Origin: an uncultured Sphingomonadaceae bacterium
GTDB lineage: Bacteria > Pseudomonadota > Alphaproteobacteria > Sphingomonadales > Sphingomonadaceae
Direction: 5' to 3'
DNA length: 64,000 bases
NCBI GenBank assembly: GCA_947501695.1
Contig: CANMWO010000002.1
Span: 124,001-188,000 of the forward strand
Below the pieces are notes generated by a model, which was not told the origin of the DNA, searched no databases, and saw only the letters and a program-made list of their open reading frames with translations. This document shows positions 17,228 to 58,693 of this stretch, one piece after another; position 1 is the first letter of the stretch, and every line of letters starts with the position of its first letter. The translations under genes and the position numbers were made by a program.

Positions 17228-18145
17228 GTGACCTTCCCCATCTGGATACCTGCCGCCTTGCTGGCCGCCTTGTTCCTCGCTTGGCGGATGGCGGTGCAGC
17301 AACGCATCAGAGCCGAAATGTCGGTCAATGCCGCGGCGCTTTCACGCTTTTTCTTTGGCTGGCCGATCGCCTGCATGATGCTCGCCAGCTATATGGCCGT
17401 AACGGGACGCAGCGCCCTGCCCCCGCTCGATGGTTCTTTCTGGTGGTTTGCTTGGGCCGCCGGTTTTGCGCAGATGCTAGCGACAAATCTCATCATCATG
17501 TCTTTCGGTTTTCGCAATCTGGTCAGCGGCACCGCTTATATGAAGACAGAGACCTTGATTGTTGCCTTTCTCGGCTGGCTAATCCTCGGCGAAACACTTG
17601 CCCCGCTCGCATGGCTCGGCATCGCCATTGCCTTTCTCGGCATATTATCCGTTTCGGTCGAAGGCGGCGCGAGAGGATTGTGGCAATGGTTGCGTGGTTT
17701 GAAACAACCTGCGGCTCTAACTGGCCTCAGCGCGGGTTTGCTTTTCGCCCTGACCGCCATTTTCATCAAACAATCAGCCAATGCGATCCCCGATGTTGAG
17801 CGCACTTATGCCGGATTGATCGTACTCACCGCCGTGCTGGGTTTTCAGGCATTGATGCAAGGGCTCTACGTAATCATCCGCGAGCCGGATCAGTTTCGCG
17901 CGATGCTGGTGCGGTGGCGCGTAACGGCACAAGTGGGCGTGCTCGCCGCCACAGCATCGGCGGGTTGGTTCATTGCCTATGCCCACGCGCCGGTTGCTCT
18001 GGTCGGCATCGTTGGTCAGACGCAGATATTGTATACGCTGGGATTTGGCCGCTTTTATTTGAAGGAACCGCTCAGCCGCAGCGAACTAACCGGCATATTG
18101 CTGGTCGGCATCGGTGTTATCATGGCTTTGGTCTCTTCGCTTTAA
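17228..18145 (+). CDS. EamA/DMT family transporter
   Basis: A 305-residue protein with about ten hydrophobic helices arranged as two EamA repeats of five, as in drug/metabolite exporters of the DMT superfamily. The typical repeat ends are visible: A-Y-M-K-T-E-T-L-I-V-A-F-L-G-W-L-I-L-G-E-T-L in the first half and G-Q-T-Q-I-L-Y-T-L-G-F...E-P-L-S-R-S-E-L-T-G-I-L-L-V-G-I-G in the second. It starts with GTG at 17228. The substrate is unknown. It is followed by a convergent GNAT gene. Confidence 0.87.
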   Translation: MTFPIWIPAALLAALFLAWRMAVQQRIRAEMSVNAAALSRFFFGWPIACMMLASYMAVTGRSALPPLDGSFWWFAWAAGFAQMLATNLIIMSFGFRNLVSGTAYMKTETLIVAFLGWLILGETLAPLAWLGIAIAFLGILSVSVEGGARGLWQWLRGLKQPAALTGLSAGLLFALTAIFIKQSANAIPDVERTYAGLIVLTAVLGFQALMQGLYVIIREPDQFRAMLVRWRVTAQVGVLAATASAGWFIAYAHAPVALVGIVGQTQILYTLGFGRFYLKEPLSRSELTGILLVGIGVIMALVSSL

Positions 18146-48921: not shown

Positions 48922-49365
48922 CTATACTTCATGCTTCTCAAGCATCTTCGTCAATGGCTCTGATTCATGAGGGCCAAAAGCCTTGGCTATTTCTGCCAGT
49001 AATTTCTCGCTTGTTTCCGTCCTCAGGTTTTGCCGGATAACCCCCAATGCCCGGGGTGCTGCAACCAGCACCAGTCCCACTTTGGAGTCACGCGCTATCT
49101 GATCAATGCGCTCAGCCGCTTCCCGGGCAAAGCGGTCTTCAGCCTGTTGGTGTAGGTCGGTCTGTTCATAAGCACCTTTGCGCGGGCTTGTGCTCTGGGA
49201 GCTGCGGCCCGGTCGGTCTGTGCCCAGTTCGGATGACCGGGGCGCAGGATCCTGATGTTCTTCCAACAGTTCCAAGGCGGGCTTGAACGCCTCGCCAATA
49301 TTGCGGAAAATCGACATGCGCGATCCATCGACCGCGACGATTAAACTACCATTGCTTATCAGCAC
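48922..49365 (-). CDS. Host attachment family protein (baeRF12-like)
   Basis: A 147-residue protein starting with GTG (AGGA 7-8 nt upstream). It shows the features of the bacterial host-attachment family, related to archaeo-eukaryotic release factor domains: L-I-V-A-V-D-G-S-R-M-S-I-F-R-N, a disordered Ser/Pro middle, D-R-F-A-R-E-A-A-E-R-I-D and L-V-L-V-A-A-P-R-A-L-G-V-I-R. The name comes from plant-associated strains; the molecular function is unknown. The promoter has CTACGTTA (49426-49433), a variant of the motif shared by nearby genes around fixLJ. Confidence 0.75.
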   Translation of the reverse strand: MLISNGSLIVAVDGSRMSIFRNIGEAFKPALELLEEHQDPAPRSSELGTDRPGRSSQSTSPRKGAYEQTDLHQQAEDRFAREAAERIDQIARDSKVGLVLVAAPRALGVIRQNLRTETSEKLLAEIAKAFGPHESEPLTKMLEKHEV

Positions 49366-49425: not shown

Positions 49426-49433
49426 CTACGTTA
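49426..49433 (-). promoter_or_regulatory. CTACGTTA motif, variant of the fixLJ-island box
   Basis: CTACGTTA (TAACGTAG on the minus strand) lies 60-68 bp upstream of the GTG at 49365, the same distance as the TTACGTAA boxes of neighbouring genes. It differs from the common form at two positions. Confidence 0.3.
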
Positions 49434-49554
49434 CAATAACATTAAATTACGACGACTGGGGCCGTTGTTGCGATAGGTATTGTTACGGATGAAGCGTCAG
49501 AAAGTGATGGATATCAAACGGCCCATCAAGCCTGACGACACCCTCTCCGAACAA

Positions 49555-49562
49555 ATACGTAA
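49555..49562 (+). promoter_or_regulatory. ATACGTAA box upstream of the 49637 lipoprotein gene
   Basis: ATACGTAA, 74-82 bp upstream of the start codon at 49637. It is one of several closely related 8-mers in the promoters around fixLJ and is a possible FixJ binding site, by inference. Confidence 0.38.
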
Positions 49563-49636
49563 AGACATATGGCGCCCGCTCATTGAGATTGGATCATCTG
49601 GTTCTAACCAACAGATTAATCCGATGGGAGAAAATC

Positions 49637-50230
49637 ATGCCCCTCACGCTCGATCTCCGCAAACGCGCTACCAAGACGATGGCGTTGATGCTCACGCTCA
49701 TGCTTGTCGCCTGCGCCATCGCCACACCTTATCAACCCAATCTCTATGGGCAAAAAGTCTCTGGAGGCTATTCCGACAAACGTCTCGCTGATGATCGGTA
49801 CCGGGTTACCTTTATGGGCAATATTTTTACTTCGCGCGACCGAGTTGAGGGCTACTTATTGTACCGAGCCGCTGAGCTTACCCAGCAAAATGGCTTTGAT
49901 TGGTTCATGTTAGTGGATCATCGGACCGAGAGCGAGCGCCGGACCTATGTCGATCGCTCTCCCCGTTATGATCCCTGGTATGGTGTCGGCTATGGCTATT
50001 GGCAACCGCATTGGTGTTATTATCGCGGGCGTAGCTGGACGACCTGGCATCCTCATATTGGTCATCGATTCTGGACTTATGATGTTGATGTCCGGACGGT
50101 CGAAAAATTTGAAGCGCATGCCGAGGTAAAAATGGGCAAAGGGCCGATGCCGGAAGATGGCCAGAGCGCGTTTAATGCCAATAGAGTTCTAGCCGATCTA
50201 GGGCCAACGATTGAGTGGCCGAAAAGCTGA
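49637..50230 (+). CDS. CC0125/CC1285-type lipoprotein
   Basis: A 197-residue lipoprotein: the ATG at 49637 follows GGGAG by 6 nt and gives the leader M-A-L-M-L-T-L-M-L-V-A-C with a lipobox Cys near residue 26. The mature part (Y-Q-P, G-G-Y-S-D-K-R-L-A-D-D-R-Y-R-V-T-F-M-G-N, L-L-Y-R-A-A-E-L-T-Q-Q-N-G-F-D-W-F) matches the alphaproteobacterial family first numbered from Caulobacter. A Tyr/Trp/His-rich stretch (Y-G-V-G-Y-G-Y-W-Q-P-H-W) follows. Function unknown. An ATACGTAA box upstream suggests control with fixLJ. Confidence 0.78.
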   Translation: MPLTLDLRKRATKTMALMLTLMLVACAIATPYQPNLYGQKVSGGYSDKRLADDRYRVTFMGNIFTSRDRVEGYLLYRAAELTQQNGFDWFMLVDHRTESERRTYVDRSPRYDPWYGVGYGYWQPHWCYYRGRSWTTWHPHIGHRFWTYDVDVRTVEKFEAHAEVKMGKGPMPEDGQSAFNANRVLADLGPTIEWPKS

Positions 50231-50257
50231 ATATTTGCCCCTCTCGCCTAGTGGCAA

Positions 50258-50265
50258 TTACGTAA
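50258..50265 (+). promoter_or_regulatory. TTACGTAA box upstream of the 50325 gene
   Basis: TTACGTAA within the 10-bp palindrome ATTACGTAAT (50257-50266), 59-67 bp before the ATG at 50325. Same motif and nearly the same distance as at 49555 and 50938. Confidence 0.42.
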
Positions 50266-50324
50266 TGACCGCGGGTTCTGAGAGGCATATTTTGATCCGC
50301 ACCAACGCAGAAGGAGTGAGAGAA

Positions 50325-50693
50325 ATGATTAAAGAAGCAACGTTAAGCCATCGCCAACATGATCATGATTATGGCAATCAGATCGCCGTCATCCGTAGCG
50401 ACCTAGACCGGCTGCAAAGCGACATTCGCAAATTAAAGGACGATGTTGCGGAAGACGCATCCGAACGGATGAAGCAATTCACTGAACAAGCGACAGAAAC
50501 GCTGAGGGAAAAGGGTGAAATATTGCGCGAGCGTAGCGATCAGCTGCGCGTAGCCGGCGAGCAACAGAAAGAAGCGATTGCCAGTGAAGTGCAAAATCAC
50601 CCCTTTGCCAGTGTCTTGGCCGCAACCGGTGCTGGTCTTGCCATTGGCGCGCTTGCTATGTGGGCCCAAAACGGCGTTAAATCCTCAGAATAG
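50325..50693 (+). CDS. ElaB/YqjD-like membrane-anchored coiled-coil protein
   Basis: A 122-residue protein. The ATG at 50325 has AAGGAG 8 nt upstream; the frame from 50211 overlaps the preceding gene and is rejected. Residues ~20-85 form a long charged coiled coil (L-D-R-L-Q-S-D-I-R-K-L-K-D-D-V), followed by N-H-P-F-A-S-V-L-A-A-T-G-A-G-L-A-I-G-A-L-A, a short C-terminal membrane anchor as in the DUF883/ElaB/YqjD family. In E. coli such proteins bind ribosomes at the inner membrane in stationary phase; that role is not shown here. It is convergent with the Pro-rich gene at 50696, with 2 bp between stops. Confidence 0.78.
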   Translation: MIKEATLSHRQHDHDYGNQIAVIRSDLDRLQSDIRKLKDDVAEDASERMKQFTEQATETLREKGEILRERSDQLRVAGEQQKEAIASEVQNHPFASVLAATGAGLAIGALAMWAQNGVKSSE

Positions 50694-50695
50694 GG

Positions 50696-50875
50696 CTATC
50701 GAGAGGGTTCGTCAGGTGCAGGATATTCCGGCGGATGCTCGGCTGGCTGTTCAGGCTGCGGCGGCGGCATTTCGGGCGCGCCCGGATCGCTAATCCAATC
50801 TGGTTCCATAGGCGGTGTTTCTGATGGTTTCGGTGTCGGGAATTCATCCGGTTTTTGTTGGGTAAAATTGATCAT
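50696..50875 (-). CDS. Proline-rich small protein
   Basis: A 59-residue ORF with AAGGAG 6 nt before the ATG. It starts M-I-N-F-T-Q-Q-K-P-D-E-F-P and is about one third proline, with many Glu (P-P-M-E-P-D-W, P-P-P-Q-P-E-Q-P-A-E-H-P-P-E-Y). It is probably unstructured and acidic. No family recognised. A TTACGTAA box lies 63-70 bp upstream, as for the neighbouring genes, which supports it as a real, coregulated gene. Confidence 0.65.
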   Translation of the reverse strand: MINFTQQKPDEFPTPKPSETPPMEPDWISDPGAPEMPPPQPEQPAEHPPEYPAPDEPSR

Positions 50876-50937
50876 GAGAGGCTCCTTGGGCTTCCCGTAA
50901 CAATGTCTCTAATTCCCTTTTCAAGCTATCCGCAGAT

Positions 50938-50945
50938 TTACGTAA
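50938..50945 (-). promoter_or_regulatory. TTACGTAA box upstream of the Pro-rich gene
   Basis: A perfect 8-bp palindrome TTACGTAA just beyond the fixJ stop codon, 63-70 bp upstream of the ATG at 50875. It belongs to the set at 49555, 50258 and 53220. Confidence 0.42.
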
Positions 50946-50946
50946 G

Positions 50947-51588
50947 TCAGTGCCGGATAGGTTTTGCGTTCACGACTTCGCCAGCTTCTGCTGCAAAGCC
51001 GATACGCAGCGCTTCGGCCAGGCTCCTGACTCGCAGTTTTTCCATCATATTGGCGCGGTAAATCTCTACGGTGCGCGGCGAAATACCCAGGTCATAGGCG
51101 ATAGTCTTGTTAGGATAGCCGGTCATTAAGCCGTCAAGTACATCCCGCTCTCGACCCGTGAGACAAGCTAGGCGGACGGTTGCTTCGGAAGATGCCATTT
51201 CTTTAAGGTCGCTATTTTCGATCCGTTCGAACGCTTCCTCCATTGCCGCCAGTAATGCTTCTTTCTCGTAGGGCTTTTCTAAGAAATTAATTGCGCCAGC
51301 GCGCATTGCCTGTACCGCAATTTCGACATCACCATGTCCCGTTAGTATGACCACTGGCATATCAATGCCTTCTTTGACCATGTGCTGTTGAACCTCTAGC
51401 CCATTCATTTCCGGCATACGGATATCCAAAAGCACGCAACCGCGCTCGGCGTTTTTGGCGAGCTTCAGAAAGGCGACCCCTGATTCAACCGGGCGCACCT
51501 GAAGCCCGGCATGGCGCAGCATGAAGGCTGCGGACCGGCGCACTGCATCGTCATCATCAACAACGTAAACTAAACGTTCATTCGACAT
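50947..51588 (-). CDS. fixJ: FixJ family response regulator
   Basis: A 213-residue two-domain regulator. Receiver: [12 protein letters not shown], phospho-acceptor Asp55 in [19 protein letters not shown] and E-K-P-Y. The C-terminal LuxR-type HTH is [12 protein letters not shown]...[21 protein letters not shown]. Start at 51588 (GGAAG 7 nt upstream), inside the end of fixL, an 11-bp overlap that couples the two. It is expected to activate hypoxia genes when phosphorylated by FixL. No fixK gene is nearby. Confidence 0.93.
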
Positions 51589-53110
51589 CTGGTTCTTCCT
51601 CATTGGCTTTTAACAGAGTGATACGGAAAATCGTGCCCCCTTCCGGGTTGGCTTCGACGCATATAGTACCTTCGTGCGCCTCAATAATTGTACGGCAAAT
51701 TGACAGGCCCAACCCCATGCCGCTGCTCTTGGTGCTCGTGAAAGGGTCAAAAATTTTCTCGGCGACACTCGCTTCAATTCCGCTGCCAGTATCTGATATG
51801 GCAATTTCGACTTTTTTATGGGGTACAGAGCGGACTGAAATATTGAGATGCTTAATCTGACTATCGGCCATCGCTTCAATAGCATTACGCATCAGGTTGA
51901 CCATCACTTGCTGGATCTGCACCCGGTCGGCAAAGACGTGATTAGTATCTGGATCTATCGTGATCGAAAATTTAATGCCCTTGTCATAAGCGCCGACCAA
52001 TCCCAACGTCGTGGCATCCTCAACCACTTGCGCAATGGACAAGAGTTCGCGGTTAATCTCTCCCTTGGCAACAAATTCGCGCAACCGTCTGACGATGGTG
52101 CCGGCGCGCAAGCTTTCCGATACGCTTTCCTGTAACGCTTCGTGAAGAAATTCCTTGTTACCCTCTGCCCCGCTATCGAGCATATCGCGCGCCGCAGAGA
52201 GATAGTTGGTGATCGCAGCAAGCGGCTGGTTAATTTCATGGGCTAGCGCCGATGCCAGGGTTCCAACAGCACTAAGCCGTGAAGAATGTAGCAAGTCGGC
52301 CTGCAAGGACTGCAGTTCTGCTGCGGTATTGCGTTGTTCAGTGAGATCTATGATAAAGCCGGTGAACAGACGATGGTCGCCTGATTTTGCTTCACCAACG
52401 GCCAGTCGCATGGGGAAAATAGTACCATCTTTTTTCTGCCCCTCGACGGTGCGGCCAATCCCGATAATCCGCTTCTCCCCCGTACGGGTATAGCGCTCGA
52501 CATAACTATCATGTTCTGCATGATAGGGCGGTGGCATCAGCATGTTTATATTCTTGCCGACCACTTCGTTTTCCCGATAGTCAAACAGGTCTTCGGCAGC
52601 TGCGCTGAACGAGGTTATTCTACATTTTTCGTCTATCACCACCATCGGATCAGGTACCGTATCCAATATCGACTCCAATATCGAAGTGGATTGTTCGGCA
52701 GCCTCCAACATGTTTTGCCAATCTGATATATCACGGGCGGTAATGACGATGGCGCTGATTTGACCGTCATGCTCTTTCAAAGGCCCGAGCCGAAATTCCA
52801 GGAGATGAGATATGCCATCCAAAGATTGTATTTCGATCTTTAGCGGCTTGCCGACTTGCGTAACATCCCCGCTGAGAACAGACTCAAAAGCATCTTTGAA
52901 AACAGGACGATAGGGTTCAGAAATCAACGACATGGGTTCGCGTTCCGGCAAGTCTTCCAGACGCTTAATTCCAATCAGGTCAAGGCCGGCCTGATTTAGA
53001 TCAATCATCTGCATATCGAGGTCGTTGACGATGACATATTCGGGCAAGGTCGACAGCACAGCTTCTAAATAAGCTGATCGGTCAATCTGATCCAATCCGA
53101 ATGCGCGCAC
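51578..53110 (-). CDS. fixL: Haem-PAS oxygen-sensing histidine kinase FixL
   Basis: A 510-residue kinase. A first PAS domain (~17-130), a second PAS with the FixL haem-pocket sequence [11 protein letters not shown]...[10 protein letters not shown], then [10 protein letters not shown] (phospho-His ~291) and an ATPase domain ([25 protein letters not shown]). The proximal haem His falls at residue 200 and the distal Arg at 220, the same numbers as in the Bradyrhizobium protein. There is no membrane segment, so it is cytoplasmic. GTG start at 53110. Oxygen binding should switch the kinase off. Confidence 0.93.
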
Positions 53111-53219
53111 AGTGCAAAGCTCCTCTCATCCCCGATGCTTCAAACATAGTATGAATTTCCAGTCTTTCCAAAATGTAAAACAGCCCCTGATCTAAGCAGG
53201 ACGAAGAGCGAGGGACGAA

Positions 53220-53227
53220 ATACGTAA
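53220..53227. promoter_or_regulatory. ATACGTAA box between fixL and the stress protein gene
   Basis: ATACGTAA, followed by AACTACCTA, about 110 bp upstream of the fixL GTG and 290 bp upstream of the universal stress gene at 53517. It might serve either divergent gene; the distance is longer than for the other boxes. Confidence 0.3.
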
Positions 53228-53395
53228 AACTACCTAGGGAACACCACTGATTTGCCCAGCTGGACAAAGATAATAATCCGTTTTGGTAACAAAGAACGGA
53301 AGGATATGAGGTTGAAAAAGCAAGCACCGAAGCGCTCTCAAAAGAATGAAAGGTCCCGATCAATACCGCGTAGATAGCGGGTTGAGAAGGTACGC

Positions 53396-53516: not shown

Positions 53517-54359
53517 ATGGCTGATATCAAAACAACACGCAAACCCATCCTTCTCGCGACAGATATGACGGCCCGCTGCGATCGTCCTTATGACCGCGCC
53601 TTGATGTTGGCGAAAATATGGGGAACGCGCTTGATCGTGATCCATGTGCTCGATCCCAAACAGGCAAAGAAAAAAGGGCTGGTCCCGAAAGAGGCGCGGG
53701 TCCAGTTGGAAGAAGAATTGCCTGAAACCGATGTGAATGTGGAATTCATTATCGAAATGGGCAATGTAGGCGAGCTAGTGATTGAGACAGCCAAGCGCGA
53801 GCGCTGTGGGATGATCGTTACGGGCGTGGGTCATTATGACGGTTTTAGCGATATTTTCCTAGGTTCTCCGGTGGACCATATCGTCCGCCATTCCGATATC
53901 CCGGTACTGATCATCAAGCGCAAGCCGGTCAAACCTTATCGTAACATTATGATTGCTACCGACTTCTCCCATTGTTCCCTGACAGCGCTCAACACTGCTG
54001 CAGAAATGTTCCCGGACATACCACTGCATCTCGTCCACGCCTATAACGTGCCCTACAGCGGCTGGCTGAAATCCGATCAGGTCGCGAAGGATATCGGCTC
54101 TGAAGAGGCAAAGTTGATGGAACGTTTTCTGGCTCAAACGACGATCGACAATGCGACGTTTAAACGTTTAGACGCTGCCAATGAAAAGGGTGATCTCGGC
54201 GTTGTCTTATTCAAAAAAATCAGGGAATTGAAATCGGATTTGGTGGTATTGGGAACCCATGGCAAGAGCGGTTTCATGCAGGCTAGCATGGGCAATAATG
54301 CGCGGGTATTATTGGGCTGGCTTAAGCAAGACGTGATGATGGTACGCGACCCTAAGTAA
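53517..54359 (+). CDS. Universal stress protein, tandem UspA domains
   Basis: A 280-residue protein of two Usp domains (about 8-140 and 143-278). Each opens with a strand K-P-I-L-L-A-T-D-M-T or R-N-I-M-I-A-T-D-F-S. The second ends with the ATP-binding loop G-T-H-G-K-S-G-F-M-Q-A-S-M-G-N; the first has G-V-G-H-Y-D-G-F-S-D-I-F-L-G-S. Such proteins are induced by growth arrest and oxygen limitation. Its position beside fixLJ and opposite a second Usp gene fits a hypoxia response. No strong SD before the ATG. Confidence 0.9.
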   Translation: MADIKTTRKPILLATDMTARCDRPYDRALMLAKIWGTRLIVIHVLDPKQAKKKGLVPKEARVQLEEELPETDVNVEFIIEMGNVGELVIETAKRERCGMIVTGVGHYDGFSDIFLGSPVDHIVRHSDIPVLIIKRKPVKPYRNIMIATDFSHCSLTALNTAAEMFPDIPLHLVHAYNVPYSGWLKSDQVAKDIGSEEAKLMERFLAQTTIDNATFKRLDAANEKGDLGVVLFKKIRELKSDLVVLGTHGKSGFMQASMGNNARVLLGWLKQDVMMVRDPK

Positions 54360-55983: not shown

Positions 55984-56796
55984 CTAGTGGGAGACAATGA
56001 GCGGCACTGGGCAATCCCGGAAAAGACTTCGTGTGACGCCGCCAAAAAGGAATTCTCGGGCCCGGCTGTGGCCATAGGCACCCATCACCATATAGCTGGC
56101 ATGCAGGGCTTCGACAGTCGATAGCAGTACCGCTTCAATAGAAGGTTTTTTCGCCGACATGCTGTGTATTTCAGAGGTGATTCCGTGGCGGGAGAGATAT
56201 TCTGACGCGGCCAGTGGCGGCAGGTCATGGTCTTTGTCCTCATCCACCGTCAGGATATGGACCGCCGTCGCCAAATGCAGCATGGGTACCGCGGCGCGCA
56301 GCGCATTGCCCGCTTCAAAACTGCCGTTCCAGGCGACGACGGCAGTACCGGTAGCATCAAATTTCTTTACATTATTAGGCTGAACAAGTGCTGGCACATG
56401 CGTGCTGAATAGCACATCGCCCAATATACCGAGCGGCAAAACATTATCCTTGTCGCCACTGGCAGAGCTTAAAATCATTATATCAGTAAGCGCGGAATTG
56501 CGCGCCAGACCACGAGCCGGACTGGCATTGGCTTCCTGATAATCCCAAGGAACATCTTCATCTGCCAATCGGCTTTCGATTTCAGTGCGTAATTTTTCGT
56601 CCGCTTCCCGCGTCAATTTCGCGACGTCGTAGACGACCGACATCCCGGTCACGCCATCAAAGGCCATTTGCGGATTATAGGGATTTGCACGCAGGCAGTG
56701 GAGATGGCCACCAATGGCACGGGTCACATCCAGCGCTGCTTGGAGCCTCGCCTCTAAACCGGAGTCGTCGTTGACGTAGAGCAGCACGGATTTCAT
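55984..56796 (-). CDS. Universal stress protein
   Basis: A 270-residue protein. ATG 56796 follows AGGAG by 7 nt and gives the start M-K-S-V-L-L-Y-V-N-D-D-S-G-L. The C-terminal Usp domain has the nucleotide loop G-A-Y-G-H-S-R-A-R-E-F-L-F-G-G-V-T; the N-terminal domain is more degenerate. It lies between the reductase (upstream) and the beta-CASP gene (downstream) in one direction and is probably cotranscribed with the latter. Confidence 0.88.
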   Translation of the reverse strand: MKSVLLYVNDDSGLEARLQAALDVTRAIGGHLHCLRANPYNPQMAFDGVTGMSVVYDVAKLTREADEKLRTEIESRLADEDVPWDYQEANASPARGLARNSALTDIMILSSASGDKDNVLPLGILGDVLFSTHVPALVQPNNVKKFDATGTAVVAWNGSFEAGNALRAAVPMLHLATAVHILTVDEDKDHDLPPLAASEYLSRHGITSEIHSMSAKKPSIEAVLLSTVEALHASYMVMGAYGHSRAREFLFGGVTRSLFRDCPVPLIVSH

Positions 56797-56841: not shown

Positions 56842-56931
56842 TGGTAGAAGTGTATCCCGATCATTTTGCGCTCTGTATAAGGGATGTTACGGAGCCGGCA
56901 GACACGCGCGAAAACTTACGCAGGCTTTGTT

Positions 56932-58186: not shown

Positions 58187-58546
58187 CTATTCGTGGCAGC
58201 TGACCACTTTAAACGGCAGCTCACTGTCATCGGTTTCCGTGATGGTCAGATATTCACCGACCCTGATCGGATGGTTTTGTAGTCCGAATATCGTTTCGTC
58301 ATCATCATCACCGACCTTGTAGGAAAAGACCCAGCCCTTGTCGGTTGTGATCACGACCCCATTTTGGTCCCGCTGACCGGGCCAGAAACGCCGAACCACT
58401 GGCCGCTTTTCTGCTTTACGGAGCGCAGCGGGATCAATCATTTCTTTATCGTCCAGAGGGACGCGAAACACATAAGCATGAGCTGATGATCCGTTAGGAT
58501 GATCAGCGGTTCGGGCCAGTTCAAGGCGTATTGTTTTCCAAGTCAT
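58187..58546 (-). CDS. Conserved hypothetical soluble protein
   Basis: A 119-residue protein: W-K-T-I-R-L-E-L-A-R-T-A-D-H-P-N-G-S-S-A-H-A-Y at the N-terminus, R-R-F-W-P-G-Q in the middle and H-P-I-R-V-G-E-Y-L-T-I-T-E near the end. I have seen this layout in alphaproteobacterial stress clusters but cannot name a domain. It is the first gene of the minus-strand group leading through the reductase and Usp genes, with a 16-bp perfect palindrome 36 bp upstream of its ATG. Confidence 0.68.
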   Translation of the reverse strand: MTWKTIRLELARTADHPNGSSAHAYVFRVPLDDKEMIDPAALRKAEKRPVVRRFWPGQRDQNGVVITTDKGWVFSYKVGDDDDETIFGLQNHPIRVGEYLTITETDDSELPFKVVSCHE

Positions 58547-58581
58547 ATCCGATATCTGGAGCGAGATGCATCACAGCGCGA

Positions 58582-58597
58582 TACGCAATATTGCGTA
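58582..58597. promoter_or_regulatory. 16-bp perfect palindrome upstream of the 58546 operon
   Basis: TACGCAAT-ATTGCGTA is a perfect 16-bp dyad 36-51 bp before the ATG at 58546. Its ATACGCAA half resembles the ATACGTAA boxes near fixLJ at 7 of 8 positions. It is a likely operator for the reductase-Usp-beta-CASP gene group. Confidence 0.45.
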
Positions 58598-58693
58598 GGT
58601 AAATAGGAATGAACCTATTTCGTAGTTGAGAAGCGGCTTTATCGGAGCTCCACTAAAAACCGGGCTTTGACGGACGGTATCGACACAGCATTC

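Follow-up and report, generated by a model that had tools for sequence, protein, structure and literature searches.

Which regulator controls the genes around fixLJ in a sphingomonad, and through which DNA element, is the question raised by a stretch of 64,000 nucleotides (hereafter the window) from an uncultured Sphingomonadaceae bacterium (contig CANMWO010000002.1, positions 124,001 to 188,000). In the original prediction, a recurring 8-bp box upstream of several genes in this region was proposed as an operator, most simply for FixJ. The host is close to Parasphingorhabdus/Sphingorhabdus, and the FixJ proteins of the nearest loci are 97% (L042 and L072), 92% (L043) and 91% (L044) identical to its own. 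The real element, a putative operator, is a 16-bp inverted repeat of two 7-bp arms separated by 2 bp (7-2-7), approximately TMSGKRA-NN-TYMCSKA, and the 8-bp boxes are mostly its halves. The dyads of the window are very probably operators of FixJ (probability about 0.87).

The inverted repeat is seen upstream of fixL in four relatives (L042, L072, L043 and L044) as CCCTACGTAGTTTTACGTATTT, that is TACGTAG-TT-TTACGTA. Among the fixJ loci of the family, TACGTA was counted 89 times where an order-3 model expects 21, and it is present in 41 of 57 loci. Another 8-mer enriched at the 57 loci, GTAGGAAA (32 copies, 6.7 expected), possibly represents the junction half of the operator. The fixL-upstream dyad served as the seed of a palindromic matrix, for which 39 fixJ loci from family members outside the genus were the training set; the window, the loci of the genus and pSymA of Sinorhizobium meliloti were independent of the training. 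The trained matrix found 104 distinct sites, with about 4 expected. The same training with spacers of 0, 1, 3 and 4 bp gave 13, 13, 23 and 10 sites, respectively, and in 20 control loci it gave 6 sites for the 2-bp spacer and 8–24 for the other spacers. In 20 genomes, 52 sites of at least 15 bits were located in the fixJ stretches versus 3 in equally long control stretches, and 32 versus 0 at 17 bits or more, a comparison that is partly circular because 19 of those 20 fixJ stretches had been part of the training. The 40 fixJ stretches represent most of the best FixJ matches, several paralogues and genomes (e.g. G116, G143, G067 and G020) being left out, and one control stretch (L174) includes 3001 masked bases.

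The motif was also recovered by palindromic expectation maximisation (EM) on intergenic DNA with 150 random seeds, where it appeared in three of the 15 best runs (81, 80 and 73 distinct sites); at the control loci it appeared in none of the 15 best runs. AT-rich low-complexity palindromes outnumbered it (89–106 versus 73–81 sites) and were set aside. Exact counting of 5-mer dyads did not reveal the motif. The degenerate dyad pattern HTMSGKRWNNWYMCSKAD was discarded for whole genomes, where it proved unspecific, many of the listed matches being GC-rich, such as coding DNA is expected to yield.

Within the window, matrix matches of at least 12 bits occur only between 49473 and 58598, where six dyads were detected. 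Five sites reach 16 bits, all of them within 9.1 kb, whereas 100 replicates of order-3 Markov sequence average 0.26 such sites per 64 kb; four reach 19 bits, for a Markov mean of 0.02. Two of the strong dyads had not been named earlier, namely the one at 49473, which is the strongest of the first intergenic region, and the one at 56877. Conservation in relatives, suggested at the outset as a check, was confirmed for the seven FixJ-like positions, at which 16–18 of the 18 core bases are kept in both L042 and L072; it failed for the box at 49426. The four positions found in L043 and L044 (50928, 53220, 56877 and 58581) keep 17–18 of 18 core bases there, while the 40 flanking bases around the FixJ-like positions match at 15–38 of 40 in the relatives. 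For the dyad at 49473, the rows of L053 (core 11/18) and L045 (7/18) are best matches at chance level and were not counted as alignments. The position of the dyad at 53220, upstream of fixL, suggests autoregulation of fixLJ, and a function of the one-sided site at 50248 is doubtful.

Evidence on the binding protein was obtained from species in which FixJ has been studied. In 47 kb of S. meliloti pSymA (a record without gene table, in which fixK and fixL were placed by tblastn), the top match of the matrix is the published FixJ site beside fixK, with 15.9 bits including its real flanks; the predicted operator thereby agrees with an experimentally known FixJ site. A second match (13.0 bits) is located on the 5' side of fixL (L308:9963-9980), where it is a possible autoregulatory site, and a third (12.6 bits) lies elsewhere. 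The fixK site itself, TAAGTAATTTCCCTTA, shares the 7-2-7 frame as TAAGTAA-TT-TCCCTTA. Of the two classes from systematic evolution of ligands by exponential enrichment (SELEX), GTAMGTAG corresponds to one half with its flank and GTAGTTTCCC crosses the dyad junction (both classes and the fixK site as cited in excerpts of PMC4999443). According to excerpts of PMC13327599, FixJ of Rhodopseudomonas palustris binds the fixK promoter (GTACGTAG), which holds a similar TACGTA-type half-site, in an electrophoretic mobility shift assay; it also represses nif genes.

The fixL and fixJ genes of the window are genuine by domain, family and structure matches, though under the curated NCBIfam cut-offs. FixJ is a response regulator with a receiver domain and a LuxR-type helix-turn-helix (HTH), as observed from the Pfam domains Response_reg and GerE, the best NCBIfam match (PRK09390 FixJ; 243.1 bits, equivalog cut-off 255) and the best full-length PDB match (FixJ, 5xso). 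Its HTH region is nearly identical to GLPNKSIAYDLDISPRTVEVHRANVMAKM of S. meliloti. The PAS domain of FixL aligns without gaps to FixL of S. meliloti (1d06) and Bradyrhizobium japonicum (8js5, 1dp6) through EHDSYVERY...RIIGIGR. With a predicted haem PAS domain that carries an axial His and the following Arg segment, and with the HisKA/HATPase part behind it, the protein has the features expected of an oxygen-sensing FixL kinase. Its best NCBIfam match is NF041777, a model named for Rhizobiales, where it remains below the equivalog cut-off (484 versus 850 bits).

A fixK-like gene is preceded by the dyad as well. In 10 of 16 loci of the genus, a dyad of 16.3–21.4 bits is located at -211 to -213 of this gene. 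In the host genome, a dyad of 20.8 bits (L201:2731-2748; C2:497230) lies 196 bp before a FixK-like Crp gene, which is followed by a FapF-like gene. The Crp protein is without the N-terminal cysteine cluster, and the gene, taken here as the fixK target of FixJ, is only FixK-like (NF050806, 148 bits for a cut-off of 300). The proposal of a FixJ operator is thus supported by the concentration of the dyad at the fixJ loci of the family, its fit to the S. meliloti FixJ site, its presence upstream of fixL and of a fixK-like gene, and its conservation; the 8-mer that had been taken as the unit gives way to the 16-bp dyad. The dyad, its clustering, its conservation, its spacing specificity and its match to the published site are all read directly from the DNA sequence.

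The attribution to FixJ is likewise sequence-based, and several points weigh against it. With loose dyad patterns, the host genome gave no more matches than with a backward control (3 versus 3; 28 versus 31; 49 and 62 versus 51 and 52), and the excess of dyads is therefore local. At least 11 sites of the host genome reach 18.5 bits (nine places picked by eye from the listed loose-pattern matches were scored for this set). Two of these are inside unrelated genes, one is before mraZ and one overlaps a called open reading frame (ORF); the two in genes and the one before mraZ look spurious. Two of the sites named in the window are one-sided (11.7 and 5.5 bits), and 6 of the 57 fixJ loci contain no site of 15 bits. 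Genomes with a close FixJ match (E <=1e-60) have a mean loose-dyad count of 3.08 that does not exceed their backward control of 3.58. Finally, the site might in principle also serve another regulator of the NarL/FixJ type.

Among the alternatives, the most probable is that the dyads serve a different NarL/FixJ- or LuxR-type regulator which just happens to accompany fixLJ. In its favour, all 149 family genomes give at least 11 matches to FixJ, and response regulators count among the dyad targets in 4 of the 57 loci. This alternative is nonetheless unlikely, as the matrix ranks the S. meliloti FixJ site first in pSymA, fixL-like kinases form the second largest group of targets, and the dyad sits before a fixK-like gene. 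Loose dyads also average 3.08 in the 48 genomes with a close FixJ match but 1.54 in the 101 others (p=7e-5), while the backward pattern does not differ between these groups (p=0.53); the loci from which the pattern was selected are part of these counts.

Under the preferred reading of the dyads as FixJ operators, the fate of the original boxes can be followed individually. Every named string was found at its place, and two further copies of the 8-mer were confirmed at 17866 and 34480. As an operator unit, the 8-mer was rejected: strings within one mismatch of TTACGTAA occur 18 times in the window versus 13.67 (sd 4.07) in shuffled versions, 15 of 100 shuffles reaching 18 or more, and 10 of the 11 exact copies in the 3.6 Mb genome are outside strong dyads. 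Three of these copies are in the window, two of them within 680 bp. Only the copy at 50938 belongs to a strong dyad (19.0 bits), the other ten scoring 7.3 or less in either frame. The places at 50938, 53220 and 58582 belong to strong dyads, as one half or as the entire element, and those at 49555 and 50258 have one good half each, with 17–18 of 18 bases kept in L042 and L072. The box CTACGTTA at 49426 was rejected as a site, as it falls in a gap in L072 and is altered in L042. The supposedly constant spacing of 59–82 bp before four gene starts thus involves one unconserved and two one-sided boxes.

These failures would favour an explanation of the TTACGTAA strings as functionless repeats due to chance or codon usage. 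It is very improbable nevertheless, in view of the density of the dyads, their spacing specificity, their intergenic bias and the conservation of their cores, the last of which speaks against it for the five strong dyads. It had been stated that a motif no commoner here than elsewhere would count against the proposal; this is the case for the 8-mer and for loose dyad patterns in the host genome, and not for the scored dyads of the window. The least probable explanation is control of these genes by FnrN or FixK through FNR boxes with the dyads being incidental, for although Fnr boxes are present at uspA and ccoN of Sphingopyxis granuli (excerpts of PMC7713065) and the host ccoN has one too, the FNR/FixK box TTGAN6TCAA has no match in the 64-kb window.

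In the 57 fixJ loci, 156 sites of at least 15 bits were found, distributed over 51 loci. Only 42 of them are inside mechanically called ORFs, though about 90% of the DNA is coding, and the distances to the gene starts peak at 25–100 bp. Targets were grouped by blastp clustering and named by representatives. Usp (universal stress protein) genes form one group with 30 entries in 23 loci, followed by fixL-like kinases (23 in 21) and, as the third largest group, the family of the 119-aa protein encoded at 58187-58546 (17 in 15). Hsp20 (9 in 8), baeRF12 (8 in 8) and ccoN (6 in 6, each time at 56 bp from the called start) were also recovered, together with BON proteins (5), zinc alcohol dehydrogenases (4), response regulators (4), GNAT proteins (4) and Crp proteins with FnrN-like cysteines (3).

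The ccoN promoter was analysed throughout the genus. The gene was found in 29 of 32 genomes and not in G150, G152 and G183; all 29 promoters were typed (L209-L226 and L295-L307, e.g. L211:1190-1203), none of these loci having been used in the training. An FNR box without FixJ dyad is present in 16 promoters, that of the host included, and a FixJ dyad (15.2–18.9 bits) without FNR box in the other 13; none has both. In the FixJ-type genomes, fixJ was detected in 12 of 13, always 6.3–8.0 kb from the ccoN match, downstream and convergent. It was detected in 14 of the 16 FNR-type genomes, in nine on the same contig at a distance of at least 167 kb and in five on another contig. An FnrN match (E <=1e-20) was obtained in all 16 FNR-type genomes versus 3 of the 13 FixJ-type genomes (G153, G179 and G180); with G179 set aside, the association has a Fisher p=5e-6 for 28 genomes, the rows of which are not independent.

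The ccoN gene tree, from which G156 was omitted as its ccoN is partial, contains three changes of promoter type, and a single FixJ-type clade is rejected (p-AU 6e-5); two changes are needed when G179 is left out. The ccoN of G179 (L307) is out of frame near its start, owing to a frameshift or a sequencing error, and has a FixJ-type promoter, yet its coding start resembles that of FNR-type relatives. Ten relatives belonging to the order but not to the family were compared; an FNR-type match lies no more than 450 bp from the ccoN match in six of them, and a FixJ dyad occurs in this range in none; one further match, in L230, lies far upstream and is outside the count. For this reason the FNR type is probably ancestral. 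The operator itself appears to have been exchanged at ccoN in the genus. Recombination of the region is possible, because the G182 leader resembles FixJ-type leaders and the tree of this one gene does not stand for that of the species.

The picture in the genus can be compared with what is reported elsewhere. Fnr control of ccoN in Sphingopyxis granuli (excerpts of PMC7713065) is like that predicted for the 16 FNR-type promoters and different from the 13 with a FixJ dyad. For Caulobacterales, a loss of FnrN with FixK taking over the old FNR sites has been proposed (excerpts of PMC4999443). FnrN loss in the presence of a FixLJ system is common to both groups, whereas at ccoN in the genus the operator itself is a FixJ dyad. 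The targets of FixJ named in the same excerpts are fixK, nifA, fixX and one proline hydroxylase, with FixLJ in Caulobacterales and Rhizobiales; the sphingomonads differ from S. meliloti in that stress genes and fixL, and in some species also ccoN, have predicted operators of their own.

In the regulation proposed for the host, FixL would sense oxygen via its haem PAS domain and phosphorylate FixJ at low oxygen. Phosphorylated FixJ dimers would then bind the 16-bp inverted repeat, mostly 25–125 bp before start codons. In this way FixJ would activate its own fixLJ operon and, directly, the local stress genes (Usp, baeRF12, the lipoprotein and the small proteins), and it would also activate the fixK-like regulator elsewhere in the genome. 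We infer the binder, its phosphorylation, the sign of the effect and the oxygen signal, the sign and the oxygen response being taken from established FixLJ biology. DosR is a NarL/FixJ-type regulator. Usp, heat-shock and BON proteins are under low-oxygen control in both the low-oxygen-activated locus of Burkholderia cenocepacia and the mycobacterial DosR regulon (excerpts of PMC6127331), to which the predicted sphingomonad regulon would be analogous in gene content only.

The positions and surroundings of the elements are compiled in the table below. A beta-CASP metallo-beta-lactamase gene is also part of the fixLJ surroundings.

Table. Dyads, originally named boxes and genes of the window (core: bases of 18 kept in related loci).
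Feature	Position	Strand	Bits	Placement or annotation	Core conservation
FixJ-type dyad ATAGGTATTGTTACGGAT	49473..49490		20.8	between divergent baeRF12 (start 49365, -) and lipoprotein (start 49637, +) genes	18/18 in L042, L072; 17/18 in L055
Weaker dyad CTCCGAACAAATACGTAA	49545..49562		11.7	one good half, 75 bp before lipoprotein start	18/18 in L042; 17/18 in L072
One-sided site CTAGTGGCAATTACGTAA	50248..50265		5.5	60 bp before ORF at 50325	18/18 in L042, L072 (flanks 25/40, 20/40)
FixJ-type dyad ATCCGCAGATTTACGTAA	50928..50945		19.0	just past fixJ stop, 53 bp before 59-aa ORF (start 50875, -)	18/18 in L042, L072; 17/18 in L043, L044
FixJ-type dyad ATACGTAAAACTACCTAG	53220..53237		20.0	110 bp before fixL	17/18 in L042, L072, L043, L044
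Weak overlapping dyad CTAGGGAACACCACTGAT	53234..53251		12.7	same promoter region (fixL) as 53220..53237
FixJ-type dyad ATAAGGGATGTTACGGAG	56877..56894		16.4	81 bp before second Usp gene (start 56796, -)	18/18 in L042, L072, L043, L044
FixJ-type dyad ATACGCAATATTGCGTAG	58581..58598		19.6	35 bp before 119-aa gene (start 58546, -)	18/18 in L042, L043, L044, L045, L047; 16/18 in L072
Box CTACGTTA	49426-49433			61 bp from start 49365
Box ATACGTAA	49555-49562			75 bp from start 49637
Box TTACGTAA	50258-50265			60 bp from start 50325
Box TTACGTAA	50938-50945			63 bp from start 50875
Box ATACGTAA	53220-53227
Palindrome TACGCAATATTGCGTA	58582-58597
baeRF_family12 / Host_attach gene	48922..49365	-		family match
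CC0125/CC1285-family lipoprotein	49637..50230	+		family match
122-aa protein	50325..50693	+		sub-threshold family matches only (sll1863, DUF883_C)
59-aa proline-rich ORF	50696..50875	-
fixJ	50947..51603	-		receiver and LuxR-type HTH response regulator; domain, family and structure matches
fixL	51578..53110	-		PAS-PAS-HisKA-HATPase kinase, its haem PAS of the FixL type; domain, family and structure matches
Two-domain Usp	53517..54359	+		family match
Second Usp gene	55984..56796	-		Pfam Usp, 37.8 bits (cut-off 24)
119-aa protein	58187..58546	-		recurrent dyad target; no match in Pfam or NCBIfam

Further dyads were observed elsewhere in the host genome. One of 19.9 bits (L202:2600-2617; C3:518099) is located 56 bp before an alanine dehydrogenase gene and overlaps the end of the neighbouring ORF. 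Another of 20 bits (L204:7478-7495; C1:1808477) lies 90 bp before a DUF3313 gene, behind which comes an HdeA-like gene; the distance from this dyad to a divergent LuxR gene, whose product has an autoinducer-binding domain, is 203 bp. A third of 20.3 bits (L200:2939-2956; C3:357938) is found between divergent Tim44-like and secB genes.

Among the matches listed in the open-licence literature, no publication was found that describes a FixJ regulon, or control of ccoN by FixJ, for sphingomonads; in Sphingobium hydrophobicum, FixLJ is mentioned as possibly acquired (excerpts of PMC6783567). A common consensus of FixJ operators is said to be lacking (excerpts of PMC4999443), and the 7-2-7 dyad derived from sphingomonads, which also recovers the S. 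meliloti site, offers a usable one. FixJ is known mainly as an activator of fixK and nifA. From the dyad, a stress regulon directly under FixJ is predicted for sphingomonads, and in the host FixJ seems to control stress genes directly. In some related bacteria, the low-oxygen respiratory enzyme seems to have passed from the control of another oxygen regulator to that of FixJ. That FixJ repeatedly displaced FnrN at the cbb3 oxidase of the genus by operator exchange, and directly heads a DosR-like low-oxygen regulon, is somewhat favoured over its contrary; the displacement is suggested by the three changes in the ccoN tree, the linkage to fixLJ and the usual absence of fnrN, and the regulon by the Usp, Hsp20, baeRF12 and BON targets. 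If this is true, FixJ would not act only through FixK but directly on the cbb3 oxidase and on survival genes. The genus provides a natural experiment, as one respiratory promoter seems to respond to FnrN in some species and to FixJ in sister species.

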